Source: a virus. From it: a stretch of 39,908 nt of DNA. The notes under the pieces are model-generated. The model did not search any database. It was not told the DNA's origin and saw only the letters and a program-made list of their open reading frames with translations. The stretch is from positions 1 through 39,908 of the IMG/VR virus record IMGVR_UViG_3300030116_006740; one strand, given 5' to 3'. Below are positions 19,136 to 34,459 of this stretch, piece by piece; position 1 is the stretch's first letter, and every line of letters starts with the position of its first letter. The translations under genes were made by a program, and so were the position numbers.

Positions 19136-20169
19136 GCGAAATGGAATTAATGCAGTGTGTGGGGCGGTGGAAAAACAAAATTTATCGCTTCAACATAAAT
19201 AAACTTGGGGATACTCCTTATCAAATGTATCAGGATGAAACTGATGATTGGAGCGAAATTAAATCAATTCCACAAAACCCCCATTATAAACAATCTCCAG
19301 TAGAAAACACTACTTGTTTAAGTTTGTATAAAAGACCTATTTCAGATATAAATAAAATACTAATAATAGGTTTTCCCCATTCAGGCACTACAGTTTTACG
19401 AGCCAAAATGGGTGACTGTGAAAACGTCATAGAGCTAACGAATGAAACTGATTATGTTGATGCTGTTTTAGCAACAAATATTCCAGATCAAACCATAATT
19501 GCGAAAACGACTAACGTCCCAAGGAGCCAAGTGGTTAAAGAAGCATTAAAAGACAACGGGGTAGCTCCCGAAAACATTCCTCTTTACCATGACTATCACA
19601 TTGTAGCAATTATAAAAAACCCTTATGAAATTTTTGGTTCACTTTCGAGAAGGTTTGGTGCTCAATATATTAATAACTTTGATTCTCAAAATAAAGAAAT
19701 AAAAATGAGAGTTAATCAAGCTGGGTTTTCAGGAGAACACTGCGCGAGTCACAGTCTTTCAACATTTGAAAATTTTGCTAAATTTTGGTTAAAGTATAGA
19801 AGTGGCTCTGAACCAAGATATCATTGCATACAATATGAAGAAATTTTTGATAATAATTTTTCTTGTTTAAAAAATTTGTTTTCTAAAATCGGCCTAACTT
19901 ATGACGAAAATATTTTTCAAGAAAGACAAGGCGATTATTGTTTACAAGACATTCCTATAAGCAAAGCAAAAGATATAGAAAAGTTTTACAAAGAACACAA
20001 CGCAAAACCCCCCGACAGTGATAATAGTATACATAGAACGTGGCAGATTTATCAAAGCTTCAAGCCAATGACTAAACCAGAGTCTTATAAAGACATATCT
20101 CAAAAGCTTTTAGAAAGAATTAAAAACTCAGAAGCAATCAAAGAACTTGGGTATTTACCTCCAGAATAG
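19132..20169 (+). CDS. P-loop sulfotransferase, 345 aa
   Basis: After an N-terminal extension of about 75 residues, ILIIGFPHSGTTVLRAKM forms the 5'-phosphosulfate loop, IVAIIKNPYEIFGSLSRRFG the 3'-phosphate site, and CIQYEEIFDN the family's conserved acidic/Tyr region. Its substrate cannot be inferred. ATGA overlap with the preceding nucleotidyltransferase. It is the last gene of the long plus-strand operon; a promoter-like AGTGTAATTA box overlaps its stop codon. Confidence 0.78.
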   Translation: MSEMELMQCVGRWKNKIYRFNINKLGDTPYQMYQDETDDWSEIKSIPQNPHYKQSPVENTTCLSLYKRPISDINKILIIGFPHSGTTVLRAKMGDCENVIELTNETDYVDAVLATNIPDQTIIAKTTNVPRSQVVKEALKDNGVAPENIPLYHDYHIVAIIKNPYEIFGSLSRRFGAQYINNFDSQNKEIKMRVNQAGFSGEHCASHSLSTFENFAKFWLKYRSGSEPRYHCIQYEEIFDNNFSCLKNLFSKIGLTYDENIFQERQGDYCLQDIPISKAKDIEKFYKEHNAKPPDSDNSIHRTWQIYQSFKPMTKPESYKDISQKLLERIKNSEAIKELGYLPPE

Positions 20170-20197
20170 TGTAATTATAGGCATAAAAACTTATGCC
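20168..20197 (+). promoter_or_regulatory. AGTGTAATTA-type promoter plus 5' hairpin over the start codon
   Basis: AGTGTAATTATAGG at 20168-20181, followed by GGCATAA (20180-20186) and TTATGCC (20191-20197), which form a perfect 7-bp stem with a 4-nt loop. The ATG at 20193 is inside the 3' arm, so the message of the zinc-ribbon gene would begin with a hairpin hiding its start codon. Confidence 0.55.
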
Positions 20198-20369
20198 ACA
20201 TTATTATGCATGTCCATACTGCGTACCCAGCGCAGACAGTCGCTTAAGCTACAACCGTCTACACGGTGGTGATGGTAAGCCCATGTACAAATGCAAAAAG
20301 TGTGGAGAAGAATTTCTTTTAGACACAGATTTCCAAAAAGCCCAGAAAAGAAAAGATAAAGACGGTTGA
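20193..20369 (+). CDS. Small zinc-ribbon protein, 58 aa
   Basis: MPHYYACPYCVPS at the start and MYKCKKCGEEF in the middle supply two CxxC pairs (C7/C10 and C34/C37) separated by 23 residues, a classic treble-clef/zinc-ribbon arrangement. The C-terminus is a basic, charged tail (QKAQKRKDKDG). Likely a zinc-binding nucleic-acid or protein-interaction module. No Shine-Dalgarno; see the hairpin and promoter just upstream. Confidence 0.7.
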   Translation: MPHYYACPYCVPSADSRLSYNRLHGGDGKPMYKCKKCGEEFLLDTDFQKAQKRKDKDG

Positions 20370-20399
20370 TTTTTTTTAGAAAACTATATTTTAATTATT

Positions 20400-20405
20400 T
20401 ATAAT
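20400..20405 (+). promoter_or_regulatory. TATAAT -10 box 5 nt before the protease ATG
   Basis: TATAAT at 20400-20405, then ATAGT, then ATG 20411; no convincing -35. The spacing equals that at 34465 and the AGTGTAATTA promoters, predicting a leaderless message. Confidence 0.5.
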
Positions 20406-20410
20406 ATAGT

Positions 20411-21394
20411 ATGAAAACTCTACTGTCTTCCGCGTTTTTAATGGTTTTTCTTTCTTTTTCCGCTAATTCTGACGAAAAAGCAAAAGCACCGAGCACTGCA
20501 GACCATCTACAAAACGTATCTGTAACCATTAGATCAGAAGGCCAGTGGTCAAATGGTGAAGGTTCTGGGGTTATTTTTACAAGAAAAGACGCAAAAGGTA
20601 ATCAAGTCAACTTTGTTTGGACTGCCGCTCATGTAATTGACAACCTTAGATCAACAAGAGAGGTTTTGGTAAACGGCTCCAAGAAAACAGTTGTTGAGTT
20701 TAAAGACCCAATGATTGTAAAAGAAATTCGACAAAACGGGCGTACCGTAGGCCGACTGCAAATGGACGCCGAGGTTTTAAAATACAGTAACGCAGATGAT
20801 GGTCACGATTTAGCTCTTTTGCGGGTTAGGAAACTTAACTTTGTCAACGACACTGTAACTTTTCACCTTAAAGATGAAATTCCAAAATTAGGCACAGACC
20901 TTCTTCATGTTGGTTCTTTGCTGGGTCAGATGGGCGCAAACAGCATGACAGATGGAATTTACTCTCAACATGGTAGACTGATTAAGTCCCTCAACAAGCA
21001 CGTTTTTGACCAAACAACCGTAACAGCTTTTCCCGGTTCTAGTGGTGGCGGTGTTTACTTAAAGTCCAACGCCCAGTACATTGGTATGCTTGTACGGGGT
21101 GCGGGAGAGGGTTTTAATCTAATTGTTCCCGTTCGCCGTATGCAGGAGTATTGCGAAAAGCATAAGATCATGTGGGCCTTAGACCCCAAGCTTCCAATGC
21201 CAACAGAGGATGACCTTAAGAAGCTCCCTATCGAACACGAGCCAAAGGAAAAGGAAGATTCAGAAGACGAAGAAAAGGAAGCCGCTAAAAAGAAGTTTCC
21301 GTTTATGATTAGAATTTACCCAAAGCATGACGATGGTCGTCCAGACTTTTTGAAGATTGGGCCACAGCCATTTAAAACGATGGAAAAACACTGA
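20411..21394 (+). CDS. Secreted trypsin-like serine protease
   Basis: 327 residues. An N-terminal signal peptide (KTLLSSAFLMVFLSFSANS) predicts export. The chymotrypsin-fold triad is complete: H74 in VWTAAHVID, D133 in GHDLALLRV and S211 in AFPGSSGGGVYL. There is no PDZ domain, unlike DegP. The C-terminal 75 residues carry a highly charged stretch (EHEPKEKEDSEDEEKEAAKKK) and end near PDFLKIGPQP. In a phage a periplasmic protease is unexpected; it could modify the host envelope, mature a virion protein or act in lysis. The phage-encoded signal peptidase I at 33655 could process it. Confidence 0.85.
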   Translation: MKTLLSSAFLMVFLSFSANSDEKAKAPSTADHLQNVSVTIRSEGQWSNGEGSGVIFTRKDAKGNQVNFVWTAAHVIDNLRSTREVLVNGSKKTVVEFKDPMIVKEIRQNGRTVGRLQMDAEVLKYSNADDGHDLALLRVRKLNFVNDTVTFHLKDEIPKLGTDLLHVGSLLGQMGANSMTDGIYSQHGRLIKSLNKHVFDQTTVTAFPGSSGGGVYLKSNAQYIGMLVRGAGEGFNLIVPVRRMQEYCEKHKIMWALDPKLPMPTEDDLKKLPIEHEPKEKEDSEDEEKEAAKKKFPFMIRIYPKHDDGRPDFLKIGPQPFKTMEKH

Positions 21395-21399
21395 TTTTA

Positions 21400-21409
21400 A
21401 GTGTAATTA
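21400..21409 (+). promoter_or_regulatory. AGTGTAATTA promoter, leaderless, for Cys-rich lipoprotein
   Basis: AGTGTAATTA followed by CTTAT and then ATG 21415. Hexamer-to-start spacing is 5 nt, identical to the boxes at 24271 and 25306. Confidence 0.6.
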
Positions 21410-21414
21410 CTTAT

Positions 21415-21564
21415 ATGAAAAATCTTGTGATAATTTGTACTGCACTATTTGCAATTGGTTGTAACTGGGGAAATTCCGGTTGCTCAGACTGTTCCTGCGC
21501 GGAGGGCTGTTGTTCAACCGACACTTGCCCCGCAGCCGATTGCACCTGTGCATGTAAATCTTAA
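21415..21564 (+). CDS. Cysteine-rich lipoprotein, 49 aa
   Basis: A gene under 60 codons. The N-terminus KNLVIICTALFAIGC is a lipoprotein signal peptide with lipobox AIGC (lipidated Cys at 16). The 34-residue mature part contains ten Cys including that one, in pairs such as CSDCSC, GCC and CTCAC. This could bind metal (metallothionein-like) or form disulfides. No family recognised. A strong terminator follows. Real-gene evidence: own promoter box, coherent lipobox and terminator. Confidence 0.7.
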   Translation: MKNLVIICTALFAIGCNWGNSGCSDCSCAEGCCSTDTCPAADCTCACKS

Positions 21565-21582
21565 GGAAGCCTATGGGTGGAT

Positions 21583-21617
21583 AAGGTGGTAAAACATTTA
21601 GTTTTGCCACTTTTTTT
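21583..21617 (+). terminator. Intrinsic terminator after Cys-rich lipoprotein
   Basis: A 13-bp stem, AAGGTGGTAAAAC / GTTTTGCCACTTT (two G-U pairs), with an ATTTA loop and a run of T at 21611-21617. Confidence 0.85.
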
Positions 21618-21637
21618 ATGTTTTTTTGGCTAGAAAG

Positions 21638-21647
21638 TGTGTAATAA
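21638..21647 (+). promoter_or_regulatory. TGTGTAATAA promoter box
   Basis: GTGTGTAATAATATAAA directly precedes ATG 21654; the TAATAA hexamer (21642-21647) is 6 nt from the ATG, a variant of the AGTGTAATTA class. Confidence 0.5.
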
Positions 21648-21653
21648 TATAAA

Positions 21654-21965
21654 ATGAACATCAAATGGAACAAGTATCAGTGGGAGATTGATTTCTTCGG
21701 TTTTGAAGAAGAAGAGTACAATGAAGCCCAAGATAGGTTTGGTGGCAAAAAGCGCGGCGACCTAAAAGATAGTGATTTTCTAGATTCAAAAAAGCGGTCT
21801 TTCCCTGTTATGTCCTGTCAAGATGTTCGTGATGCAGTAAGTAGCTGGGGCCGTTATACTGGCTCTATGAACTTTGAAGAGTTCAAAGGGAAGTTGACAC
21901 GCCGCGCCAAAAGCTTGGGGTGTGAAGCCTCTCTACCAAAAAAATGGAAAGAGTCTGAAAAATAG
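21654..21965 (+). CDS. Hypothetical protein, 103 aa
   Basis: Unrecognised, with two visible parts. The N-terminus (WNKYQWEIDFFGFEEEEYNEA) is acidic and aromatic. The C-terminal 60 residues (KKRSFPVMSCQDVRDAVSSW then GRYTG, FEEFKGKLTRRAKSLGCE) resemble a small helical domain seen in phage structural or prohead-associated proteins, where 'R-x-F-P-x ... DVR-A' recurs. It converges with the minus-strand deoxyhypusine-synthase-like gene, leaving 1 nt between stops. Function unknown. Confidence 0.6.
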   Translation: MNIKWNKYQWEIDFFGFEEEEYNEAQDRFGGKKRGDLKDSDFLDSKKRSFPVMSCQDVRDAVSSWGRYTGSMNFEEFKGKLTRRAKSLGCEASLPKKWKESEK

Positions 21966-21966
21966 A

Positions 21967-22941
21967 CTACCAACCTAATACGTACGCAAATACAAGCGGA
22001 GCAACAATCGTGGCATCGCTTTCAATAATATGTTTAGGTGTGTCAGTTTCAAGTTTTCCCCAAGTAATTTTCTCATTAGGTACAGCACCTGAATAACTAC
22101 CATAGCTAGTGGTTGAGTCACTTATTTGACAAAAGTATGCCCACTTTCTTATGTCTTTACGAAGCATGTCCTGTTCAAGCATAGGAACAACACAAATTGG
22201 GAAATCACCAGATATTCCTCCTGCTATTTGAAAAAAGCCCAGCGGGTTTTTAGCTACTGTTGATTCGTACCAACTAGCTAAATCAACCATGTAATCTATA
22301 CCTGCTTTAACAGTTCTTGTATTTTTAATTTGTTTTAAAATAAGCTGACCAGCAAACATATTACCAAGGGTACTATCTTCCCAGCCGGGTACAAAAATAG
22401 GCAAATTTTTCATAGCCGCCGCAAAAAGCCAGCTATTTTTGGGGTCTATTTGATAATACTGCTCTAAGTCACCGCTCAAAAGAATATCGTATAAATATTG
22501 ATGTGGAAATTTTTCTTCTTTATTTTCATCAGCACTTTTCCAAAGAGGAAGTATCTTAGATTCTAAACGTCGCATAGCTTCTTCTTCGGGAATGCATGTA
22601 TCTGTAACTCGGTTTAGCTTTTTATTTAGTAACTCTTTTTCGTCTAAAGCTGTAAGGTCTCTATAATTTGGAATACGCTTGTAATAGTCGTGAGCCACCA
22701 AGTTAAACACATCTTCTTCAAGATTGGCCCCTGTACAACTAATGGCTTGAACTTTATCTTGTCGAATCATTTCAGCTAGTGACACTCCCAACTCTGCTGT
22801 ACTCATAGCCCCACCCATAGTTAAAAACATTTTGCCACCATTATCAATGAGCTTTTTATAATCTTCAGCAGCGTCTAACAGAGCCGCTGCATTAAAGTGT
22901 CGATAGTGAGTTTTTATAAAATTTTTAATAGGACTGCTCAT
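21967..22941 (-). CDS. Deoxyhypusine synthase-like protein (homospermidine synthase type)
   Basis: 324 residues, same length class as bacterial DHS-family proteins. NAD-binding and catalytic signatures are present: KMFLTMGGAMSTAELG, SCTGANLEEDVFNLVAH, LPIFVPGWEDSTLGNMF and SGAVPNEKITWGKLE, whose WGK contains the Lys that forms the enzyme-imine intermediate. The enzyme moves the aminobutyl group of spermidine to an acceptor. Phages and bacteria lack eIF5A, so a polyamine acceptor (homospermidine-like chemistry) is more likely. It forms an ATGA-coupled pair with the agmatinase gene, pointing to polyamine metabolism. Confidence 0.9.
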   Translation of the reverse strand: MSSPIKNFIKTHYRHFNAAALLDAAEDYKKLIDNGGKMFLTMGGAMSTAELGVSLAEMIRQDKVQAISCTGANLEEDVFNLVAHDYYKRIPNYRDLTALDEKELLNKKLNRVTDTCIPEEEAMRRLESKILPLWKSADENKEEKFPHQYLYDILLSGDLEQYYQIDPKNSWLFAAAMKNLPIFVPGWEDSTLGNMFAGQLILKQIKNTRTVKAGIDYMVDLASWYESTVAKNPLGFFQIAGGISGDFPICVVPMLEQDMLRKDIRKWAYFCQISDSTTSYGSYSGAVPNEKITWGKLETDTPKHIIESDATIVAPLVFAYVLGW

Positions 22942-23759
22942 TTACTTTGGGCTCCTATCACATGTCTCATAATTCTAGCTGCTAATGAAGATGTGTTACC
23001 GTTGTCAAGTGGAGGACACGCCTCAACACAGTCAAAACCCACCATTTTACTAGATAACCTATCAATTATTTTGATAACCTCTAAAGGTGTTAAACCGAAA
23101 GGCTCAGGAGTGCCGACACCGGGAGCGTAGGCTGGGTCAATCCCATCCATGTCCAAACTTAGATAAACAGGACTACTAATTGAATCTATACTACGGCAAA
23201 AATCAAAACCCATTTCTCCTGCTCTTTGTATTTCTTTTTTTGAAGCTGAACGAATTCCTATTGGGTAGACGTTATCTTTTCCGAGCATCTCCACTAACTG
23301 ATATGCAGTGGTTGCATGTGATTTACTATTTCCTTCGTATTCTTTTCTAAAGTCTAAGTGGGCATCAATAATAACCACTGATAAATCGGGGTATTTTTCT
23401 TTTACTGCCCTTACAACTGGAGGCGTCATTGAATGCTCACCGCCAATTCCAATTGGAAATTTGTTTTTACTAATTATATTTCTTACAGAGTCTTCCAATA
23501 AGATTTCATTTTCTATTTGGTTATCTTTTATTAAAAGATTTCCTTGGTCATGGATAGATAAGTCACACAGGTCTATGCCGAGTTCTAAGAGATAGGTTTC
23601 AAAATTGTAGCTTTCCTCACGAACTTCATCAGGTGCTAAAGCAGTACCTTTTCTAAAGCAAGCAGTACCCTCAAAGGGGTAGCCATATATAACAAAATTA
23701 GCGTCATCAAATGACGATTCACTGTCAGCAAATTTAATCATTTTACCAAAATGGGCCAT
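22938..23759 (-). CDS. speB: Agmatinase/arginase-family ureohydrolase (SpeB-like)
   Basis: 273 residues from ATG 23759 (a GTG two codons upstream also fits). The binuclear Mn site is complete: GGEH, DAHLD and SLDMDGIDP supply the His and five further ligands, and the following PAYAPGVGTPEPFG is the conserved family loop. Agmatinases give putrescine plus urea. The gene overlaps the 3' end of a small membrane-protein gene and is coupled by ATGA to the deoxyhypusine-synthase-like gene, together suggesting synthesis or remodelling of polyamines, possibly for packaging DNA or host modulation. Substrate could be arginine-derived compounds other than agmatine. Confidence 0.87.
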   Translation of the reverse strand: MAHFGKMIKFADSESSFDDANFVIYGYPFEGTACFRKGTALAPDEVREESYNFETYLLELGIDLCDLSIHDQGNLLIKDNQIENEILLEDSVRNIISKNKFPIGIGGEHSMTPPVVRAVKEKYPDLSVVIIDAHLDFRKEYEGNSKSHATTAYQLVEMLGKDNVYPIGIRSASKKEIQRAGEMGFDFCRSIDSISSPVYLSLDMDGIDPAYAPGVGTPEPFGLTPLEVIKIIDRLSSKMVGFDCVEACPPLDNGNTSSLAARIMRHVIGAQSK

Positions 23760-23916
23760 ACTCACCCCAAATAGATTCTCCTGTTATCATGCTCCATATC
23801 AACACGAAAATCGAATAAATAATAACGGCTATAATGGGCAAGGCTGGTATTAAGACAGTAATGCCAATGACAATAAAGATAATAATTAGAATTGCTGATA
23901 GAATATTTTTAAACAT
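23743..23916 (-). CDS. Small membrane protein, 57 aa
   Basis: A short frame from ATG 23916 to TAA at 23743-23745. Nearly all of residues 4-44 are hydrophobic (LSAILIIIFIVIGITV..., ALPIIAVIIYSIFVLIWSM), giving one long or two closely spaced transmembrane helices, followed by GESIWGEYGPFW. It overlaps the start of the agmatinase gene by 17 bp. No family recognised; it may be a small phage membrane protein unrelated to polyamines. Confidence 0.6.
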   Translation of the reverse strand: MFKNILSAILIIIFIVIGITVLIPALPIIAVIIYSIFVLIWSMITGESIWGEYGPFW

Positions 23917-23919
23917 CTT

Positions 23920-24240
23920 TTACCTAAAAATCTTTAATTGGTTTTTTAATAAATGAACATTGTTTAAAGAGATACAGTTAGTTTTTATAGTATTTGTGTA
24001 ATTGAAGTCAATGTCTAGCCTTAGTCCTGATTCATATTCTTCTGGTGTTATATAATAGTCCACATAATCCATTAGGCCTAAATTTTTCATATATGTATAA
24101 TATGAATCTTTAAGTTCTTGCTCAACTTCAATTAAATTATATAATTTTAAATCACACCTAGAAAAAGAGGTTAAATACCTAATCGCCATAGTATCACTTT
24201 TTGGTGTGTCTATTAAGTGCGATGATATAATCAGATTCAC
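23920..24240 (-). CDS. Hypothetical protein, 106 aa, GTG start
   Basis: Unrecognised. The GTG at 24240 is preferred because the minus-strand box AGTGTAAAGA lies 5 nt before it, in the same geometry as other leaderless starts. The longer frame up to 24426 would overlap the divergent gene by 156 bp. The protein has a helical middle (ELKDSYYTYMKNLG) and a strand-rich C-terminus (LRLDIDFNYTNTIKTNC, VHLLKNQLKIF). The stop is 3 nt from the membrane-protein start. Confidence 0.55.
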   Translation of the reverse strand: MNLIISSHLIDTPKSDTMAIRYLTSFSRCDLKLYNLIEVEQELKDSYYTYMKNLGLMDYVDYYITPEEYESGLRLDIDFNYTNTIKTNCISLNNVHLLKNQLKIFR

Positions 24241-24245
24241 ATTAT

Positions 24246-24265
24246 TCTTTACACTAGTGTAAGTA
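24246..24265. promoter_or_regulatory. Divergent leaderless promoter on a 14-bp palindrome
   Basis: TTACACTAGTGTAA (24249-24262) is a perfect palindrome. On the plus strand AGTGTAAGTA ends 5 nt before GTG 24271; on the minus strand AGTGTAAAGA ends 5 nt before GTG 24240. Both genes are thus served by mirror-image boxes. Confidence 0.6.
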
Positions 24266-24270
24266 TAGGT

Positions 24271-24465
24271 GTGAGGACAAAGCCTCAAATTGTTCAGCTT
24301 AATGGTCTTAGGATAGAGGTTTTTAAAACCAAAGTCAAAATTCATGATCTTCATAATGATGTTTCTGCCATCGAAGCTGAAAAGATCGTTGAATATCTCT
24401 ATCGAGAGGGCTTTATCGAAAAACAAAGTATTATATGCGAAATTCTTAGAACAGAAGAGGAATAG
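24271..24465 (+). CDS. Hypothetical protein, 64 aa, GTG start
   Basis: Unrecognised. Predicted beta strands in RIEVFKTKVKIHDL and a C-terminal helix rich in Glu and Lys (AIEAEKIVEYLYREGFI then EKQSIICEILRTEEE). The GTG start is supported by the box AGTGTAAGTATAGGT immediately upstream, nearly identical to that at 25306. It precedes the 218-residue gene by 5 nt. Confidence 0.6.
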   Translation: MRTKPQIVQLNGLRIEVFKTKVKIHDLHNDVSAIEAEKIVEYLYREGFIEKQSIICEILRTEEE

Positions 24466-24470
24466 TTAAA

Positions 24471-25127
24471 ATGGCTCAATTAAATGCAAACACTCCGTAT
24501 ATTCAATGTTACATAAGAAATAAATATATATTCCCCAAAGATGATGGCGGGTTGACCGAAGGCTACATTTTTGGATGCAAGTCTATGCTAAATAGGCCAA
24601 TGCATTTTCATTTTCAATCACATTTTGGCGCAAATTTCTGGATGATGCCGATATCTGCATTTTGCCACAATAAAAAATTTGATTCTTTATCGAGCGATGA
24701 AGAAAAAAGACTATCGCTACTTCAGACTTGGGATTGCCAAAGTAATAATATTGCAGTAACTACCTTCGCATTTTTACAACACAAGCGTGTTGATGTTCAT
24801 TGCAGGGATGGTGTTTGGCGTTCGGGTAAATATATATTTACTATTGATGACTATGAGGGTGACTTAAATGAGCTTAACGTGGGCTATGCAAACGATCAAG
24901 ATAGTAAGTGTTATCAATTCATAGAGTTGGATGATGGAAACTTTTGTATCCCCCCAAACAATTTGTTGCGTTGGCACAATCCCGATTTTATTGTGCCTTA
25001 CGACAAAAATAGTGTGCCTAGAATAAAAATAAATTCTGAAGCCATGAGTTCCGAAGATATTGATAGAAGCTACGGTAACAGTCCTTACTTTTTTTATACG
25101 CACCCAACAACAGGAGAAAAAAAATGA
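24471..25127 (+). CDS. Conserved phage-type hypothetical protein, 218 aa
   Basis: The order of motifs (IQCYIRNKYIF, EGYIFGCKSMLNRPMHFHF, DSLSSDEEKRLSLLQTWDC, WRSGKYIFTIDDYEGD, CYQFIELDDGNFCIPPNN and RWHNPDFI) resembles a hypothetical protein I recall from several T4-like and related phages; function unknown. Many aromatics and paired His; no membrane segment. It has a GAGGAA Shine-Dalgarno in the 3' end of the previous gene and an ATGA overlap with the next one. Confidence 0.6.
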   Translation: MAQLNANTPYIQCYIRNKYIFPKDDGGLTEGYIFGCKSMLNRPMHFHFQSHFGANFWMMPISAFCHNKKFDSLSSDEEKRLSLLQTWDCQSNNIAVTTFAFLQHKRVDVHCRDGVWRSGKYIFTIDDYEGDLNELNVGYANDQDSKCYQFIELDDGNFCIPPNNLLRWHNPDFIVPYDKNSVPRIKINSEAMSSEDIDRSYGNSPYFFYTHPTTGEKK

Positions 25128-25276
25128 AAATGACCAAAAAACAAACAGACCTATCGTTTCCTTTTAAGAGTGAATATATAAAATTTTATAACCCAAGAGA
25201 AGGAAGAGAGCAGGTTATGTTTATATATACTAATGCGTTAAATGGTGAAATCGTTAAGTATAGAATACTTAGATAA
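25124..25276 (+). CDS. Small hypothetical protein, 50 aa
   Basis: ATG 25124 overlaps the preceding stop (ATGA) and has CAGGAG upstream. The sequence (FPFKSEYIKFYNPREGREQV then FIYTNALNGEIVKYRILR) suggests two or three beta strands. No family recognised. The coupling and Shine-Dalgarno support translation. Confidence 0.6.
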   Translation: MKMTKKQTDLSFPFKSEYIKFYNPREGREQVMFIYTNALNGEIVKYRILR

Positions 25277-25290
25277 TTATTATATAATTA

Positions 25291-25300
25291 AGTGTAATTA
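25291..25300 (+). promoter_or_regulatory. AGTGTAATTA promoter, leaderless, for gene at 25306
   Basis: AGTGTAATTA followed by TAGGT and then GTG 25306; identical geometry to 21415 and 24271. Confidence 0.6.
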
Positions 25301-25305
25301 TAGGT

Positions 25306-25620
25306 GTGAACGTACACCTTAAAAAATATATTTTATCTGTTAAGAGTGATGCCATAAAGCTTGGTTTTCGTTTACGTATTGACGAAACAAATATTGACAC
25401 TGTAGTGCTTGCCTCTAACGCTGAAACCAACAAGGTTGGTATTGCTTTAATACAGCCTGATATTTTTGGTGATGTTAAAATAAAATCTTTTATGATCAAC
25501 CAACAGAAATACAATTGGGCTCGTGATGAAGGCTTCAGTATAGATCAAATGATAGAACTAACACAGGAAGGAATTTTTGTAGAAATAGACCCTAAAAAAT
25601 TAGCTAATTATTTATTGTAA
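25306..25620 (+). CDS. Hypothetical protein, 104 aa, GTG start
   Basis: Unrecognised. It opens with a basic helix (KKYILSVKSDAIKLGF) and has beta-strand-like repeats (TVVLASNAETNKVGIALIQP), then WARDEGFSIDQMIELTQEGIF and a helical end. The start is assigned from the promoter box 5 nt upstream. No Shine-Dalgarno. Confidence 0.55.
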   Translation: MNVHLKKYILSVKSDAIKLGFRLRIDETNIDTVVLASNAETNKVGIALIQPDIFGDVKIKSFMINQQKYNWARDEGFSIDQMIELTQEGIFVEIDPKKLANYLL

Positions 25621-25638
25621 TTTTTAAATGTTTTTTAT

Positions 25639-25644
25639 TATAAT
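25639..25644 (+). promoter_or_regulatory. TATAAT box 7 nt before ATG 25652
   Basis: TATTATAATAATATAAATG; no -35 evident. Consistent with a short-leader or leaderless start. Confidence 0.4.
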
Positions 25645-25651
25645 AATATAA

Positions 25652-25819
25652 ATGAAGAAAAGCTTAAATTTACTAGATCAAATAATTGAAAAAGCTGAGT
25701 ATGATAATTTTGAAGAATGTAAAAGAGAAGGTGCTGTATTTGAGAATTTTTACGTTTTTAACTTAAAGCTGTTAAGAGAGTTAATGCAAGAAGAACTCAA
25801 AAATGAAAAGACTGAATAA
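25652..25819 (+). CDS. Small hypothetical protein, 55 aa
   Basis: Helical, charged protein (SLNLLDQIIEKAEYDNFEEC near the N-terminus, LLRELMQEELKNEKTE at the end). No family recognised. It overlaps the next gene by 17 bp and has a TATAAT box upstream. Confidence 0.55.
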   Translation: MKKSLNLLDQIIEKAEYDNFEECKREGAVFENFYVFNLKLLRELMQEELKNEKTE

Positions 25820-26063
25820 AAATTATTTTCAAGAAAACTATCTGATGTCTTATAAAAGTATATCATGGTGGGAAGATGAAATTAATGAATATGTAGAGTT
25901 TTTTGAGAGAGCAGAAAAAGGTACGAAATATAGCCAACGAATAGTTGACCATAATAAAGAAGCATATGGAGCACTAGTTGCAAGAGGAAACGTAGAAGCT
26001 AGAATTTTAGATGGAATAGAAATTGAATTTGAAAAGTATAATGCCAAAAAAAAGAAAAAATAA
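25803..26063 (+). CDS. Hypothetical protein, 86 aa
   Basis: Mostly helical with aromatic pairs (SISWWEDEINEYVEFFERAEK) and a lysine-only tail (AKKKKK). No family recognised. It starts inside the preceding small gene, so it is in the same transcript. The Lys-rich end suggests nucleic-acid contact, but this is a guess. Confidence 0.5.
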   Translation: MKRLNKNYFQENYLMSYKSISWWEDEINEYVEFFERAEKGTKYSQRIVDHNKEAYGALVARGNVEARILDGIEIEFEKYNAKKKKK

Positions 26064-26064
26064 A

Positions 26065-26205: not shown

Positions 26206-26256
26206 TGACACACATTTATTGAGACAGATGGTCACGTTGTCTCCCCCTACCCCCTG

Positions 26257-26287: not shown

Positions 26288-26316
26288 GGCACACCCGATG
26301 CTTAAACCTAGGCACT

Positions 26317-26693: not shown

Positions 26694-26722
26694 TTGACAA
26701 AATAGTAGCCCACTCGTAAGAT
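26694..26722 (+). promoter_or_regulatory. Sigma70-type promoter, leaderless
   Basis: TTGACA (26694-26699), 17-nt spacer, TAAGAT (26717-26722), 8 nt to ATG 26731. Perfect -35, moderate -10. Confidence 0.7.
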
Positions 26723-26730: not shown

Positions 26731-26937
26731 ATGACAGATACTACAGATAATAAGTCAAATATGATGACCGTAAAAACCGGATATGCACGTGCTGCCCTTA
26801 TGATTATGGCTGCAAACCTGTGCCTCACTGGTTATGCGATCATTGCCTTGGCTAATCTCCAGTTCCCTCCGACTGAGGGAGAGAGGACTGAACCAACAAC
26901 GACAACCGTAACAACCCCTCAAGAAAATAATTCTTGA
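26731..26937 (+). CDS. Small single-span membrane protein, 68 aa
   Basis: One transmembrane helix (ARAALMIMAANLCLTGYAIIA, about 19-39) between a polar N-terminus and a Thr/Glu/Pro-rich C-terminal tail (TEGERTEPTTTTVTTPQ). Its higher G+C and codon choice differ from its neighbours, and it carries a sigma70-like promoter, suggesting early expression or recent acquisition. Function unknown. Confidence 0.65.
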   Translation: MTDTTDNKSNMMTVKTGYARAALMIMAANLCLTGYAIIALANLQFPPTEGERTEPTTTTVTTPQENNS

Positions 26938-26961
26938 CAGTTACCAATATTAAACTATATT
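26934..26961 (+). promoter_or_regulatory. Sigma70-type promoter, leaderless
   Basis: TTGACA (26934-26939) overlapping the previous stop, 16-nt spacer, TATATT (26956-26961), 8 nt to ATG 26970. Confidence 0.7.
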
Positions 26962-27295: not shown

Positions 27296-27326
27296 GTGCT
27301 TTTTAAGAAAATTTTATATATTAAAC

Positions 27327-28421: not shown

Positions 28422-28804
28422 TGCCTTTCTATATATTTGAACACCCAAAAACCAAAGAGACAATAGAAGTGCAACAGCGCATGACAGACAGTCATGTTTA
28501 TGTTGATGAGTCTGGTGTAGAATGGAATAGAATTTTTACCAATCCAAATGCAGCTATTGATACGAGGCCAGATATTTATTCTACAGCACAAATGGCCCGA
28601 TCAGTAGATAACAAGAAAGAAACCTACGGAGAACTTCAAGACAGGTCAAAAGAAGCAAGCGAGAAGCGTGTTCAGCAAAACGGATATGACCCCCTAAAGC
28701 AGCAGTGGTTTGATGATTATGCCAAAAAACGAAAAGGAAAAAGGCACATACAAGACCCGAAAGCTGGTGAAGCAGGGGCCAAGATAGTAGGAAGAGACTT
28801 GTAA
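28421..28804 (+). CDS. FmdB-like domain protein that has lost its zinc cysteines
   Basis: 127 residues. The start MPFYIFEHPKTKETIEVQQR then TDSHVYVDESGVEWNRIF follows the FmdB regulatory-protein layout (Y-Y-C-x2-C ... Q ... C-x2-C ... R), but all positions expected to hold Cys are substituted, so it is unlikely to bind zinc. The second half is charged and helical (KKETYGELQDRSKEASEKRV) and ends with a basic linker. Its ATG overlaps the glycosyltransferase TAA. Function unknown. Confidence 0.65.
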   Translation: MPFYIFEHPKTKETIEVQQRMTDSHVYVDESGVEWNRIFTNPNAAIDTRPDIYSTAQMARSVDNKKETYGELQDRSKEASEKRVQQNGYDPLKQQWFDDYAKKRKGKRHIQDPKAGEAGAKIVGRDL

Positions 28805-28808
28805 ACAT

Positions 28809-28828
28809 TCCCAATACACTTATTGGGA
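28809..28828 (+). other. Hairpin after FmdB-like gene
   Basis: TCCCAATA / TATTGGGA with a CACT loop, perfect 8 bp, but no T-run immediately after; possibly an RNA-stabilising hairpin or a weak terminator. Confidence 0.5.
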
Positions 28829-28916
28829 TTGCTCTGGATAAAAAATTCATTCTTGAGTTTTTTTACTTTTTTTTTCTTAAAAAAGATGTAATGTTAGTAG
28901 ACTTAAGGCTTTCAAG

Positions 28917-31388
28917 ATGTCAAAAAACGAGATTCAAGTTAAAAAGAGAAACGGTAGACTTCAAAAACTAGACATAAATAAAATCAATATCTGTGCCGAA
29001 AGAGCATGTGAAGACATTGATAATGTTTCTCCTAGTGAGGTTGTATTAGATGCCCATGTTCAGCTTTACGATAAAATCACTACCAAAGAAATAGATAAGG
29101 CACTCATCATGAGTGCAAGGCAGAAAATCGAAAAAGAATCAAACTACTCATATGTAGCATCAAAGCTTCTTTTGTTTAATATCCATAAAGAGGTTTTTGG
29201 AGAGAGTCGCGACAGTGACGTTTTCGAGCATCAGTACAAACTTTCTTTTGTAAGAAATATCAAATTACTTGTTAAAGAAAAAGTCTTAAATAAAGAACTT
29301 TTAAACTTTGATTTAAAAAAGCTGTCTGAAGCGATGGTTTTGGATAGAGATTTTAAATTTAAGTATTTAGGTCTACAAATTTTATATGATCGCTATTTTC
29401 ATCACCTCGATGAAAGGCGTTTAGAAACTCCACAGGCATTTTGGATGCGTGTGGCAATGGGGCTTGCATTAAATGAAAAAAATAAAGAAGAAAGAGCGAT
29501 TGAGTTTTACAACGTGCTTTCTCAGTTTCATTTATGCTGTTCAACTCCTACTCTGTTTAATAGTGGCAGTACCCATAGTCAGCTTTCTAGTTGTTACCTT
29601 AATACTTTCGATGATTCCATTGATGGTATATTTGAAGGTCTTTGGCAAGAAGCCCGAAAAAGTAAATTTGCTGGAGGTCTCGGTTTCGATGTTACTAACT
29701 TCCGCGCTGCTAATTCTTATGTTAAAGGCACTAATGGAAAATCTTCTGGGTTAATTCCGTGGCTTAAAATCTATAATGATACGCTTGTAGCAGTTGACCA
29801 AGGGGGTAAAAGGCCCGGTGCTGGCTGTGCATACCTAGAGCCTTGGCATTTAGATATTGAAGACTTTCTTGATCTTAAAAAGAATACGGGCGACGAAAGA
29901 CGCCGTTGCCATGACATGAATACAGCCAATTGGCTTCCTTCTTTGTTTCTTAAAAAGGTTTTAGCTAATGAGGATTGGTATTTGTTTTCTCCATCTGATG
30001 TGCGCGACCTACATGAATTGTATGCACAAGACTTTGATAAGAGATACAAAAAATACTGCAAGATGGCTGATGATGGCAAAATTCAAAACTTTAGAATTAT
30101 AAAAGCTAAAGACCTTTGGAAAAAAATGCTTAGGGTACTTTTTGAAACTGGTCATCCTTGGATGACTTTTAAAGATAATGCCAATCTAAGGTACTCTAAT
30201 GGTCATGAGGGCGTAGTGCATAGCTCTAATCTCTGCACAGAAATCTTTTTGCACACGAAACCTTCAAAGTTTGATGAAGGTGAAAAAACTGAAGTTGGAG
30301 AAACTGCCGTATGCAATCTAAGCTCCGTCAATCTCAAAGAACACATAAAAGAAGATGGTAATTTAGATTTTAAAATGCTTGCAAAAACCATAGCAACGCA
30401 AATGCGTATGTTGGATAATGTAATTGATTTAAATTTTTATCCAACCAAAGAAGCTGAAAAAGCCAACATGAGTCATCGACCTGTTGGTGCGGGAACTATG
30501 GGGTGGGCAGATGTTTTTCATTCTTATAAAGTTAATTTTTCTAGCGATGATGCTATTAAATTTTCTGATGAGCTTTATGAGTTTATCTCATATCATTGTA
30601 TTTTAAATTCTAGCAAAATTGCTAAAGAAAAAGGAACATATTCAACTTATGATGGCTCTCTTTGGAGTCAGGACATTTTGCCTATTGATACTTATAAAAA
30701 CCTTATGGAATACTTGGGTGAAAAACCCTTGGTTCACAGGGGTAAAAAGTTTTGCCCCGAATTAGATTGGAAAACACTTAGAACCCACATAAAAGATCAT
30801 GGAATGCGTAATAGTAATACTATGGCAATTGCTCCCACTGCTACCATATCATATATTCAGGGTTGCTCGCCTTGTATTGAGCCAGATTTTTCTGTGCTTT
30901 TTGTATATGAAAATAAAAGTGGTAATCTTACAATCATTAACGAGTGGTTTATTAAAGAATGTAAGGAAAGAGGGCTTTGGAACCAAGGCATGATTGATGC
31001 CATAAAGGCCGTAGATGGCGATCTGAGCCGTTTAAATGGCGATATCCCCCCAGACCTCAAGGAAAGGTTCTGTACGGCATTTGACCACGATCAATTCAGG
31101 CTGGTTGACGGTGCTGCCGCCAAGCAAAAATGGATTGATATGGGGCAATCTTTGAATTTATTTAATAAATCTACCTCTTTAAAATATTTGCATGATTTAT
31201 ATATCCATGCTATGAATAGAGGGTTAAAAAGCACATACTATTTAAGGAACAGAAGTGCGAGCGAAATTGAGAAATCGACTCAGGGTGGTGGTAACTCTGA
31301 TAATACTAACCCAAGTGGTGATAATGATAGCGGGTCTTCTCCTAAAGCTTGCTCGATCTTAGACCCAACTTGTGAAAGTTGTCAATAA
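28917..31388 (+). CDS. nrdA: Ribonucleotide reductase class I, alpha subunit (NrdA)
   Basis: 823 residues, full-length and without an intein. An ATP-cone domain (about 1-95, IQVKKRNGRLQKLDINKI at its start) implies dATP/ATP allosteric control. Catalytic residues are intact: C226 in LSSCYLN and C466 in AVCNLSS (redox pair), the radical triad N438-L-C440-T-E442, and the radical-transfer tyrosine pair in LKSTYYLRN. The C-terminal CESCQ is the redox-active tail that accepts electrons from a thioredoxin or glutaredoxin, none of which is in this window. A Shine-Dalgarno-like AAGG precedes the ATG. It is followed by nrdB with a promoter-like box between them. Confidence 0.97.
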   Translation: MSKNEIQVKKRNGRLQKLDINKINICAERACEDIDNVSPSEVVLDAHVQLYDKITTKEIDKALIMSARQKIEKESNYSYVASKLLLFNIHKEVFGESRDSDVFEHQYKLSFVRNIKLLVKEKVLNKELLNFDLKKLSEAMVLDRDFKFKYLGLQILYDRYFHHLDERRLETPQAFWMRVAMGLALNEKNKEERAIEFYNVLSQFHLCCSTPTLFNSGSTHSQLSSCYLNTFDDSIDGIFEGLWQEARKSKFAGGLGFDVTNFRAANSYVKGTNGKSSGLIPWLKIYNDTLVAVDQGGKRPGAGCAYLEPWHLDIEDFLDLKKNTGDERRRCHDMNTANWLPSLFLKKVLANEDWYLFSPSDVRDLHELYAQDFDKRYKKYCKMADDGKIQNFRIIKAKDLWKKMLRVLFETGHPWMTFKDNANLRYSNGHEGVVHSSNLCTEIFLHTKPSKFDEGEKTEVGETAVCNLSSVNLKEHIKEDGNLDFKMLAKTIATQMRMLDNVIDLNFYPTKEAEKANMSHRPVGAGTMGWADVFHSYKVNFSSDDAIKFSDELYEFISYHCILNSSKIAKEKGTYSTYDGSLWSQDILPIDTYKNLMEYLGEKPLVHRGKKFCPELDWKTLRTHIKDHGMRNSNTMAIAPTATISYIQGCSPCIEPDFSVLFVYENKSGNLTIINEWFIKECKERGLWNQGMIDAIKAVDGDLSRLNGDIPPDLKERFCTAFDHDQFRLVDGAAAKQKWIDMGQSLNLFNKSTSLKYLHDLYIHAMNRGLKSTYYLRNRSASEIEKSTQGGGNSDNTNPSGDNDSGSSPKACSILDPTCESCQ

Positions 31389-31413
31389 AAAGTGTATATA
31401 TATTGTATAAGTA

Positions 31414-32424
31414 ATGAGTAAGAGTGGATTATTATTGGATGAGAATGTAGCGGGTGTAAATCAAATTTTACCCCACAAACATGAATTTGCTTGGGATTTG
31501 TTTCTAAAAGGCGTAGCAAATAATTGGTCGCCAGCCGAAATAAACATGAGCGATGACGTAGACCAGTGGAAAAATGGAACTTTAAGCAAAGATGAAAAAT
31601 TACTCGTTAAAAGATGCCTTGGGTTTTTTGCTGGAAGTGAGTCCTTGGTTGGCAATAATTTACTTCTTAATGTCGCGAAGTGGATAACGGACGCTGAATG
31701 CGGCCAATACATCATGCGGCAAGCATATGAGGAGTCTTTGCACAACTGGACTGTTGTAACGTGCTGTGATTCTTTTTCATTAAAAGTTGGTGAGGTTTAT
31801 GAAGCTTATTTAAACATTCCTTCTATTAAAGCCAAAGACGACTTCCTGATGCAAATTACAACTGATATTAATCGTCAGGATTTTTCTACAAAAAGCACAG
31901 AGGGAAAAAGAGAATTTTTAAGAAATTTAATTACATATTATATTGTTTGTGAAGGTACATTTTTCTTCAGTGGCTTTGCTATGCTTTTGGCCCTAGGTCG
32001 GCAAAATAAGCTGCCCGGACTTTCTGACCAAATTAGGTATACCCTCCGAGACGAGAGTCTACATATCCAATTTGGTACGTATTTAATAAATACGATTAAA
32101 GAACAATATCCATCGGTGTGGACAAAAAAATTCGAGGAAGAAACTGTTGAGCACATCAAAAAAGCTGTTGAACTTGAAATAGCTTATGCTCATGACGTTC
32201 TTCCACGAGGAATTCTTGGCTTAAATGCTGAGATGTTTGTCGATTACATGCAATACATTGGTAATCGGCGTCTTGAAGGCATTGGCATCGACTTCCGTTT
32301 TGACAGCGATCAGAACCCATTTCCGTGGCTTGCTGAAGTTGTTGACACGGGAGCGATGACCAATTTCTTTGAAAGAAAAGTTAAAGATTACCAAAGCTCT
32401 GGAGTTCTTGAAGATGACTTCTAA
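31414..32424 (+). CDS. nrdB: Ribonucleotide reductase class I, beta subunit (NrdB), radical Tyr replaced by Val
   Basis: 336 residues, strongly like the chlamydial (class Ic) R2 proteins in FLRNLITYYIVCEGTFFF, LALGRQNKLPGLSDQ, PRGILGLNAEMF and NPFPWLAEV. All six metal ligands are present: E76 (Glu rather than Asp, as in class Ic), E107, H110, E180, E214 and H217. The residue four after H110, normally the radical Tyr, is Val (V114, codon 31753-31755); Chlamydia has Phe. The protein therefore presumably uses a metal-based oxidant such as a Mn/Fe centre instead of a tyrosyl radical. The metal choice is inference. TATATA and TATAAG boxes lie just upstream. Confidence 0.96.
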   Translation: MSKSGLLLDENVAGVNQILPHKHEFAWDLFLKGVANNWSPAEINMSDDVDQWKNGTLSKDEKLLVKRCLGFFAGSESLVGNNLLLNVAKWITDAECGQYIMRQAYEESLHNWTVVTCCDSFSLKVGEVYEAYLNIPSIKAKDDFLMQITTDINRQDFSTKSTEGKREFLRNLITYYIVCEGTFFFSGFAMLLALGRQNKLPGLSDQIRYTLRDESLHIQFGTYLINTIKEQYPSVWTKKFEEETVEHIKKAVELEIAYAHDVLPRGILGLNAEMFVDYMQYIGNRRLEGIGIDFRFDSDQNPFPWLAEVVDTGAMTNFFERKVKDYQSSGVLEDDF

Positions 32425-33208
32425 AAACGTAATCTATACAATCAACGCAAAATCCAGAAACGAAGAAAATTGCCCCAATAACACTTGGGAGCTTGCACCG
32501 CTATACGCATTCAAGGCGTATGCAGAAAAAGTTCAAGCAGATTTGGTGGTTATTGATGAGGACTCAATTCCAGCGTTGAGTTTACCATCAACACTTAATT
32601 TTTTCCAATGTGCTTGTATGTTAAAGTTTTCTATTTTTGATCACTTTGTTAAATCTGAATATGAAAAAATGATTCTTTTAGATTTAGATATACTTGTGAG
32701 AGCAGAAGCTAGGGATGTATTTAAGGAAGAGTGTCATGGTATTCACATGATGCCGCAGCCCAAAAAATCACAAAGAGAGGCTTTTAAATATTTTTTAAAA
32801 CAAAATTTTAAATTTAAAGGTGATATGCCCGAATACTATAATGGGGCTATGATTTACGCTAATAAAAAAGCGATCACTGATTTTTATAATAAAGTTCCAA
32901 AACTTGGCGAATGGTTTGGCTTTTATAAAAAATATAACCTACACAAAAATCCAGTAACCTCATTTGTGAACGAAGACAACCTTCATGAAGAGTGGAATGA
33001 ACAATGTCTTTTAAGTTTTTTCTTTCACGAGCAACAAATTAAAATTCATCCACTTTATCCAGACCTTGGAAATTTAAAGTATTGGCTTGTGGGCTGGAAA
33101 AACAAACGTCCCTACGATGACGATAGAGAAGGTGGAGATGCAATTCATTTTTGTGGCCCAGAAGGCAAAGCACATTTGACCAAAATGGGTTTGATGACTA
33201 AATTTTAA
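32414..33208 (+). CDS. Glycosyltransferase-like protein (GT8-like, GT-A)
   Basis: 264 residues from ATG 32414, which overlaps the nrdB stop by 11 bp; an earlier ATG (32369) is inside nrdB. A DxD-like motif is in KMILLDLDILVRAEA. A later EYYNGAMIYANKKAI is the N-x-G motif of nucleotide-sugar transferases, and DAIHFCGPEGKAH resembles the C-terminal His region (compare GT8 'HxxGxxKPW'). Acceptor unknown. Co-transcribed with nrdA-nrdB. Confidence 0.72.
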   Translation: MTSKNVIYTINAKSRNEENCPNNTWELAPLYAFKAYAEKVQADLVVIDEDSIPALSLPSTLNFFQCACMLKFSIFDHFVKSEYEKMILLDLDILVRAEARDVFKEECHGIHMMPQPKKSQREAFKYFLKQNFKFKGDMPEYYNGAMIYANKKAITDFYNKVPKLGEWFGFYKKYNLHKNPVTSFVNEDNLHEEWNEQCLLSFFFHEQQIKIHPLYPDLGNLKYWLVGWKNKRPYDDDREGGDAIHFCGPEGKAHLTKMGLMTKF

Positions 33209-33236
33209 TTGATTAAATTTTATTTTTGTGTATAAT
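33209..33236 (+). promoter_or_regulatory. Promoter of the tmRNA gene
   Basis: TTGATT (33209-33214), 16-nt spacer, perfect TATAAT (33231-33236), then 7 nt to the first G of the tmRNA at 33244. GTG immediately precedes the TATAAT, as in the AGTGTAATTA boxes. Confidence 0.7.
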
Positions 33237-33243
33237 ATATTAA

Positions 33244-33651
33244 GGGAGCGTACTGGTTTCGATTTAGGGCCTTACGCAAGATTGCAAGTAGAGGATGATG
33301 GTTGGCCTCTTTAAAAATCCGTCAAGGCTATTCAACTGCCAAAAATAATGTTGATATGGCCCCTTCTCTGGCCGAAGCTGATGCGATTCTCGCTAAGTTC
33401 GGTTGGGCTGAAGAGGCTGCTGTAGCTGCGTAAGCTACCCGTCCTACTCTGGATGCTCGTTAAGGAGCTAGGGCGTCGATAACGGGCAAAAAAAACTAGG
33501 AAGGGTGAGGAGTCTAGTATAAATAAAGTGCCTCCAGCCTCGTGTGTAGTTGTCAGTGACGAAGCGCGGGACAAGTAACACTGACTAAGCTTGTAGTATA
33601 TCTGAGCAGATGGTTTTAAAGACGCGGGTTCGACTCCCGCCGCTTCCACCA
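33244..33651 (+). ncRNA. ssrA: Transfer-messenger RNA (tmRNA), one-piece
   Basis: 408 nt. The tRNA-like part is formed by the 5' GGGAGCG and 3' CGCTTCC (one G-U) with discriminator A and encoded CCA (33649-33651). The 5' end shows the invariant GGTTTCGA, and the 3' half has a T-arm CGGGTTCGACTCCCG. The mRNA-like domain resumes at GCC 33338 and ends at TAA 33431-33433. The tag is about 31 residues, beginning AKNNVD and ending AEEAAVAA; its hydrophobic C-terminus (AVAA) fits ClpXP-type degradation signals. Tags of about 10-20 residues are usual. It rescues stalled ribosomes and tags products; the gene presumably supports translation late in infection. Confidence 0.95.
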
Positions 33652-33654
33652 TTT

Positions 33655-34116
33655 TCATTGTAGCTGGCCTACGATTTCATCATTCCAGACCAAACCAAAC
33701 CAAGTATCATCTCGATTATCACCTATTACCCAGCATTGGCCCTCTTGAACTATTTCTGGTTCCCAAGTTGAACCTTCGCTTATATTTATGTGGCTAAATT
33801 CATCAATATATAATTTATTGTTTTTAAATATGTAGCCATTTACAATCTGAATTACATCGCCCGGAACCCCTATTACCCTTTTTATTAAAAAGTCTTCTTC
33901 TTCATAGTCCCAAAAGACCACCACATCGCCCTCTCTGGGTTCTGAAAAATCATAAGAAAGTTTATTAACTAATACAATATCAAAATTATCCTGAGAAGGA
34001 TTCATAGAATCCCCCACAACAATAAAAAACTTATAACCAAAGGTAAAAATGCAGACAAATATAATAAAAAGAATTAATAGTCTTATATTTTTTAAAATTT
34101 TTTTGTACACGTTCAT
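33655..34116 (-). CDS. lepB: Signal peptidase I (LepB-like)
   Basis: 153 residues. One N-terminal membrane anchor (LLILFIIFVCIFTFGYKFFI, about 13-32) is followed by the Ser/Lys catalytic dyad: S37 in VVGDSMNPS and K79 in FLIKRVIGVPGD. The third signature GDNRDDTWFG is near the C-terminus. The enzyme is much shorter than E. coli LepB (324 residues) and about the size of short bacterial SipS-type enzymes. It would cleave signal peptides at the outer face of the membrane. It converges on the tmRNA, with stop and tmRNA 3' end 3 nt apart. Phage-encoded signal peptidases are rare; the secreted protease at 20411 is a candidate substrate. Confidence 0.9.
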   Translation of the reverse strand: MNVYKKILKNIRLLILFIIFVCIFTFGYKFFIVVGDSMNPSQDNFDIVLVNKLSYDFSEPREGDVVVFWDYEEEDFLIKRVIGVPGDVIQIVNGYIFKNNKLYIDEFSHINISEGSTWEPEIVQEGQCWVIGDNRDDTWFGLVWNDEIVGQLQ

Positions 34117-34123
34117 TTATAAG

Positions 34124-34133
34124 AGTGTAATTA
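34124..34133 (+). promoter_or_regulatory. AGTGTAATTA box between lepB and the membrane/coiled-coil gene
   Basis: AGTGTAATTA (34124-34133) is 9 nt from ATG 34143. The complement contains TATAAT, which could serve lepB on the other strand. Confidence 0.5.
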
Positions 34134-34142
34134 TATTTGACG

Positions 34143-34430
34143 ATGGATACTCAACTTCTAATCAATGTGGCCTTCGGACTTGTTTCGTTCCTTGGAGGGT
34201 GGTTAATTAAGATGGTTTTGGGCCATATTAACGAGCTAAAAGCAAGCCATGAGAGGCTGCTTATAAAGCATATAGAGGACATGGAAGACCTCCTAGAAAA
34301 GCACACGAATTTAGCCCTTTCTATGCCTGAAAAATACGTATCTAAAGACGACTTCCAATCATTTGTAGAGAGAATCGACCACCGCTTCAATAGACTAGAA
34401 GAAAAACTAGACGACGCACTTAAAAAATAG
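34143..34430 (+). CDS. Membrane-anchored coiled-coil protein, 95 aa
   Basis: Start ATG 34143; TTG 34137 is also in frame. One transmembrane helix (INVAFGLVSFLGGWLIKMVLG) then a long charged coiled coil (HINELKASHERLLIKHIEDM through DHRFNRLEEKLDDAL). Small proteins of this layout occur in many phages, sometimes near lysis genes; a spanin- or assembly-type role is possible but not shown. No Shine-Dalgarno. Confidence 0.65.
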   Translation: MDTQLLINVAFGLVSFLGGWLIKMVLGHINELKASHERLLIKHIEDMEDLLEKHTNLALSMPEKYVSKDDFQSFVERIDHRFNRLEEKLDDALKK

Positions 34431-34453
34431 TTTTAATTTCTCAAAAAAATAGC

Positions 34454-34459
34454 TATAAT
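34454..34459 (+). promoter_or_regulatory. TATAAT box 5 nt before ATG 34465
   Basis: TATAAT, GAGAA, ATG. No -35 is seen. This would start the sugar operon to the right end. Confidence 0.55.

Follow-up and report, generated by a model that had tools for sequence, protein, structure and literature searches.

The late promoters of phage T4 are built from a box of 8 bp that spans -13 to -6, with no -35 element and an A/T-rich start region, and the T4-related phage Aeh1 uses a late promoter variant at -13/-12 (PMC2988020). Short single boxes with RNA starting at a fixed distance are likewise found in the late promoters of the jumbo phages AR9 (AACA-N6-TA/G) and phiKZ (TATG), which are read by phage multisubunit RNA polymerases; the late leaders of AR9 span 26–491 nucleotides (nt; PMC5312081). 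In bacteria, leaderless genes preceded at about 12 bp by a TANNNT element have been well documented (Zheng 2011, PMC3160421; Deinococcus-Thermus, PMC12340547). The box analysed here, GTGTAAWTA, precedes genes of the IMG/VR virus contig IMGVR_UViG_3300030116_006740, a linear fragment that was taken in its entirety (39,908 bases; hereafter the window), and no description of this box was found in the open-access literature searched, the coverage of which was incomplete.

From its distribution and surroundings, the GTGTAAWTA box appears to be a transcription signal with RNA starting at the ninth base after GTGTAA, and a large group of uncultured aquatic double-stranded DNA phages appears to use it for many genes. 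Two comparison sets were assembled, the first from ribonucleotide reductase (RNR) loci (L028–L107) and the second from 80 loci chosen solely by the profile of a short sigma factor encoded in the window; RNR and sigma-profile queries retrieved related loci, whereas a search with the single window sigma protein retrieved none. Over about 80 related contigs the density of GTGTAAWTA is 0.201 per kb between genes and 0.012 per kb within genes, a 17-fold difference, while three scrambled control words gave 0–0.019 per kb in the same test with no comparable intergenic enrichment. For 1,521 starts with non-coding upstream sequence in 170 loci, the 24 bases ahead of the start contain 77 copies of GTGTAAT, as against six further upstream, and this number exceeds all 209 other orders of its letters (mean 3.2 over all 210). 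The pattern GTGTAAWTANNNNNATG was found at 34 places in 50 whole contigs and its reverse at two. Of 193 non-redundant sites, which precede many unrelated gene families, 72 have GTGTAA 8 nt ahead of the start codon, a sharp peak in the spacing distribution, and 24 more have it 9 nt ahead. The sigma-picked set provides an independent replication, with 113 near and three far occurrences and again a peak at 8 nt. No box was present in either of two control sets, phages with a canonical-type sigma factor and phages with a deoxyhypusine synthase gene, both of which have ordinary Shine-Dalgarno sites.

The evidence from the window alone is modest and the weight comes from the relatives. Four exact copies of AGTGTAATTA occur in the window compared with 0.18 expected, each directly preceding a gene. 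The 10-mer with up to two mismatches shows no excess there (73 versus 74 in shuffled sequence) and is useless as evidence, and GTGTAA alone is not enriched (14 versus 21 expected).

The position of the predicted RNA start can be read from sites at which the start codon lies 11–19 nt away (n = 69). At 91% of these sites a purine occupies the ninth base after GTGTAA and at 74% a pyrimidine occupies the eighth, compared with 55% purine at the same ninth base inside genes (p = 7e-11 for the ninth base). A pyrimidine followed by a purine is the usual signature of a bacterial transcription start. At the commonest spacing the ninth base is the first base of ATG or GTG, so that the predicted RNA start falls on the start codon at 72 of the 193 sites. 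Because the purine signal was read at distant starts, and because transfer-messenger RNA (tmRNA) genes have no start codon at all, the RNA start is placed without reference to start codons. The tmRNA genes are the key support for a transcriptional role, since they carry the box nevertheless: GTGTAW lies 7–11 nt before the mature 5' end in ten of 14 tmRNA genes of the window type, and in 13 of 20 genes of another type the box ends 8–10 nt ahead of a conserved AGTTCTTT leader. As these genes are related, they do not amount to 34 independent cases.

A TTGACW -35 element is present at two of 93 box sites (2%) and at 42 of 90 TATAAT sites (47%) in the first set (p = 9e-14), and a -35-like hexamer accompanies 13 of 93 box sites (14%) in the sigma-picked set. 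Alignment of the box sites revealed no conserved block upstream, only mild A/T richness. The purine signal at the predicted start, the box-led tmRNA genes and the absence of a -35 element together argue for the box being a promoter.

The TATAAT sites belong to a second class in the same phages, in which TTGACA peaks at 28–34 nt and TATAAT at 5–9 nt ahead of start codons, so that this sigma70-like class would also be leaderless. Expectation-maximization motif discovery returned TATAAT and TGTAAT as a single motif, and the classes were therefore separated by their -35 content. The sigma70-like class has no single sharp purine position at the start, and hence a base-exact start is claimed for the box class only. 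Shine-Dalgarno words precede 1% of starts in either class, compared with 19% of operon-internal starts and a background of 8%. The two classes hardly mix within gene families: sigma70-like families of known function are the clamp loader, DnaB helicase, DNA polymerase, rIIA, deoxynucleoside monophosphate kinase and NrdB, while box-led families include a portal protein, PhoH, a tail-related family and small membrane proteins, with many of unknown function. In four terminase-bearing contigs, box and sigma70-like starts number 14:1 in the structural block, delimited by its homology with the structural region of contig G016, as against 26:46 in the rest (Fisher p = 7e-5), which suggests a later timing of the box class.

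All sites listed in a first-pass annotation of the window were recovered in the sequence, position for position (Table 1). Its distance of 5 nt between box and start is exact for 21415, 24271, 24240 (minus strand) and 25306, but becomes 15 nt for 20193, 6 nt from the 10-mer for 21654 and 9 nt for 34143. The predicted start at 20183 is a pyrimidine–purine step matching the family-wide signal, and GTGTAA of the 21638 box lies 9 nt ahead of ATG 21654, inside the family spacing distribution. TATAAT does lie 5 nt ahead of 20411 and 34465; in correction of the annotation, the TATAAT sites and the box sites represent two different promoter classes. The box reported before the tmRNA gene is present, as a GTGTAT variant (33228–33233). 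The lack of -35 elements and Shine-Dalgarno sites holds statistically, and the pattern extends well beyond the window, recurring in related contigs and in the sigma-picked loci. The annotation had named equal frequency of the motif inside genes and before starts as an outcome that would speak against its proposal of a phage-specific leaderless promoter; in the relatives the motif is instead much rarer inside genes than between them. Of that proposal, a lineage-specific box without a -35 element and with leaderless or nearly leaderless messages stands, but leaderlessness is not special to the box, as the TTGACW/TANNNT class shares it.

Table 1. Promoter sites, tmRNA gene and sigma factors in the window and in relatives; RNA starts are predictions.
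Feature	Position	Strand	Predicted RNA start	Gene or start codon	Remarks
Short phage sigma factor, candidate box reader	10819..11439	+			206 amino acids (aa), sigma2 + sigma4; PHROG 351, E=5e-14
Box AGTGTAATTA	20168..20177	+	20183 (A)	ATG 20193; 58-aa zinc-ribbon-like open reading frame (ORF)	Exact match; 10-nt leader
TATAAT, -10 of sigma70-like class	20400..20405	+		ATG 20411	5 nt before ATG; -35 weak or absent
Box AGTGTAATTA	21400..21409	+	21415 (A of ATG)	ORF 21415-21564, 49 aa, Cys-rich, lipoprotein-like	Exact match; 5-nt gap
Box TGTGTAATAA	21638..21647	+	21653	ATG 21654	1-nt leader
Box AGTGTAAAGA	24246..24255	-	24240 (G of GTG)	ORF 23920-24240	
Box AGTGTAAGTA	24256..24265	+	24271 (G of GTG)	ORF 24271-24465	
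Box AGTGTAATTA	25291..25300	+	25306 (G of GTG)	ORF 25306-25620	Exact match; 5-nt gap
TTGACA-N17-TAAGAT, sigma70-like	26694..26722	+		ATG 26731	8 nt before ATG
TTGACA-N16-TATATT, sigma70-like	26934..26961	+		ATG 26970	8 nt before ATG
Box variant GTGTATAAT	33228..33236	+	33242	tmRNA gene	Start 2 nt ahead of mature tmRNA 5' end
tmRNA gene	33244..33651	+			Rfam RF00023, 128 bits; non-coding gene led by box
Box AGTGTAATTA	34124..34133	+	34139 (G)	ATG 34143	4-nt leader
TATAAT, -10 of sigma70-like class	34454..34459	+		ATG 34465	5 nt before ATG; -35 weak or absent
Sigma factors in relatives	L182:17040-17993, L205:6234-7076, L194:1233-1838, others				

The gene starting at ATG 34143 encodes a small membrane protein, and similar proteins in the relatives form the largest box-led gene family. 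The gene behind the TATAAT site at 20400 (20411–21394) encodes a trypsin-like protease (Pfam Trypsin_2) with a signal-peptide-like N terminus. The boxes at 24246–24255 and 24256–24265 abut as a divergent pair and contain the palindrome TTACACTAGTGTAA at 24248–24261; a divergent box pair resembling it is also found in L074.

The register of the box supports the comparison with T4 late promoters (TATAAATA, recognized by gp55 together with gp33 and gp45) made in the first-pass annotation: TGTAAWTA would occupy -13 to -6 with no -35 element, and in both systems a phage sigma factor is encoded in the same genome, either strand is used and structural genes are served. The box differs from the T4 sequence in that -12 carries G rather than A and -14 a fixed G, and T4 late boxes lie mostly 24–28 nt before an ATG with a Shine-Dalgarno site, whereas the GTGTAAWTA RNAs are predicted to be leaderless. 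The further suggestion of kinship, a diverged analogue of the T4 late system, is not supported. The T4 late consensus is not enriched near starts in these phages. Pfam models for the T4 capsid protein Gp23, gp33 and gp45 gave no matches, the gp33 model (PF16805) in none of 21 contigs, in searches that had no positive control; for this reason gp55 and gp45 were sought again with PHROGs and with T4 and P-SSM2 as controls. Both controls matched, and neither gp55 (phrog_234) nor the gp45 sliding clamp (phrog_223) was found in 17 contigs, although a very divergent clamp is possible. Alignment of the window sigma factor with gp55 using hhalign was not significant. The box thus seems to work like a T4 late promoter without being a T4-family system.

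The bacterial 'TA-led' leaderless genes, in which the start codon follows a -10 element at some 12 bp and no Shine-Dalgarno site is present, correspond very well to the sigma70-like class, and box starts also have a -10 element at about this distance, as judged from the spacing peak and the purine signal. The TA-led consensus TANNNT is however read by sigma70, while the box is GTGTAAWTA, lacks a -35 element and occurs alongside a virus-only sigma factor. What is new is the distinct box and its association with this sigma factor, leaderless TANNNT genes being already known. The AR9 and phiKZ late promoters differ in their polymerases from the sigma-dependent reading proposed here.

By profile and model, the candidate reader of the box is a two-domain sigma70-family factor comprising regions 2 and 4. 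The Pfam models Sigma70_r2 and r4 match with E<3e-4, just under the curated cut-offs; its profile matched sigma factors in the PDB (E=2e-9), and an AlphaFold2 model (pLDDT 82.6) gave top Foldseek matches that are mostly sigma factors, with RpoH (8hkc) first (4e-5). The sigma2 and sigma4 regions match the phage sigma factors of PHROG 351 and PHROG 36, from which the window protein differs in its length of 206 aa, the lack of sigma3 and a region 2 signature KFSTWLGN...RYHCLN. It had no tblastn match among 50,697 phage records, and the family was absent from cellular genomes in a search of 84,980 species, so that no cellular home was found. It is clear in 33 of 50 contigs and in six of the seven contigs longer than 100 kb, and the box is found wherever the family occurs. 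In a divergent clade, whose sigma factor is about 31% identical, GTGTAT and GTGTAA occur in the ratio 8:6, compared with 14:120 in the main clade (p = 1e-4); this shift of the box consensus with the sigma clade is suggestive of co-variation. On this correlative link of co-occurrence and consensus shift, the short sigma factor is somewhat favoured as the reader of the box.

These data are best accommodated by a complete single-box promoter, an explanation held here with considerable confidence. RNA polymerase carrying a phage-made sigma factor would recognize the single -10-like box GTGTAAWTA (TGTAAWTA at -13 to -6) without a -35 element, and RNA would begin at the ninth base after GTGTAA, about one DNA turn downstream of the box. 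For many genes RNA would begin on the initial base of ATG or GTG itself, and for most others 1–10 nt upstream of it; no Shine-Dalgarno site would be needed because the messages would be leaderless or nearly so. The second, sigma70-like leaderless class (TTGACW-N17-TANNNT) would drive replication genes and the single-box class the structural block, tmRNA and accessory genes, probably in middle or late transcription. A bolder version, in which the virus-only short sigma factor family reads the box by itself and places the RNA start on the start codon, and in which leaderless mRNA carries the second phase of transcription throughout the lineage and bypasses Shine-Dalgarno initiation as one element of host takeover, can be entertained only tentatively.

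Several observations weigh against this explanation or parts of it. The consensus shift in the divergent clade rests on 14 sites. The relatives encode two or three sigma factors, a short one, a canonical-type one (270–335 aa) and one of the PHROG 1740 type, which allows for more than one candidate reader, and the 158-kb contig G011, which may be incomplete, uses the box with only a canonical-type sigma factor and no detectable short one. A role confined to late transcription is less certain, as part of the box sites lie elsewhere than in the structural block. Gene starts in the contigs were called by a simple ORF rule. Finally, the contigs are related and mostly fragments, and sites in them are not independent; p-values treating them as such are too small, although the effects are large and replicated.

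The presence of several sigma factors raises the possibility that the canonical-type or PHROG 1740-type factor, rather than the short one, reads the box. Five contigs (G011, G048, G003, G005 and G006) have a canonical-type sigma factor and no detectable short one, and G011 and G048 use the box. On the other hand, the canonical-type factor retains the standard sigma70 region 4.2 residues (TRERIRQIE) and hence fits the reading of TTGACA, its distant relatives in other phages occur without the box, and in three large contigs (G041, G045 and G049) the short sigma factor is present and no canonical-type match was obtained, making this alternative unlikely. It is rather improbable that the box is a variant host sigma70 -10 element, TGTAAT replacing TATAAT, that the host holoenzyme recognizes, with the phage sigma factor unrelated to it. 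The box does share its position and leaderless geometry with the TATAAT class, a handful of sites are hybrids (for example TTTGAC...GTGTAAATA in L221), and the -35-like hexamers at 14% of sites in the sigma-picked set would fit such a reading; yet in the first set 98% of box sites lack the -35 element, the G for A at -12 and the fixed G two bases upstream are accompanied by few intermediate sequences, gene families split almost cleanly between the classes and control phages lack the box.

A role as a translation-initiation signal, or as a repressor or activator site, rather than as a promoter core could be read into the position of the box directly ahead of start codons and into palindromic divergent pairs such as that at 24248–24261. 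Such a role is very improbable given that the box precedes tmRNA genes, that the purine signal tracks the box rather than the start codon and that no -35 element or other promoter is visible at box sites; the palindromic operator in particular was ruled out by counts, an inverted copy lying within 14 nt at only six of 193 sites. Chance, or the common origin of a small number of intergenic regions, which the shuffled 10-mer counts in the window and the common descent of the contigs might suggest, is considered refuted by the number of non-redundant sites ahead of unrelated gene families, the independent replication and the negative controls.

The single-box explanation provides a working promoter map, with RNA starts predicted to the base, for a widespread phage lineage of which no cultured member was found, and names a virus-only sigma factor as the candidate reader. 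If correct, it would combine a T4-late-like single-box promoter with leaderless translation in phages without the T4 late machinery, and it would offer a simple rule by which thousands of metagenomic contigs could be screened for gene starts, for RNA genes led by the box and for probable late genes.

The window encodes nucleotide metabolism, lipopolysaccharide-type sugar genes, a class I RNR, the tmRNA and the short sigma factor. The large subunit of this RNR shares no more than about 47% identity with those of INPHARED phages and up to 84% with those of many IMG/VR contigs, and the terminase of one relative is only about 25% identical to those of INPHARED phages; neither comparison gave a close cultured relative.

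In one tmRNA subgroup (L309, L315, L331 and others) the mature 5' end is separated from the predicted RNA start by the conserved AGTTCTTT leader of 13–14 nt. The tag of the window tmRNA is unusually long (31 residues, AKNNVDMAPSLAEADAILAKFGWAEEAAVAA), and those of relatives are also long, some similar and others quite different (e.g. AKTAKYKGHISARVSLVEETVSVA). Convergent with the tmRNA gene is a phage type I signal peptidase gene (33655–34116, minus strand; Pfam Peptidase_S26). A deoxyhypusine-synthase-like gene adjoins an arginase-family gene at 21967–23765 (minus strand), possibly forming a polyamine pathway, and homologues of the former gene occur in more than 20 other virus contigs, which do not use the GTGTAAWTA box. 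Surface-polysaccharide synthesis is suggested by the sugar-nucleotide genes at 12553–16268, which show resemblance to heptose adenylyltransferase and phosphoheptose isomerase.

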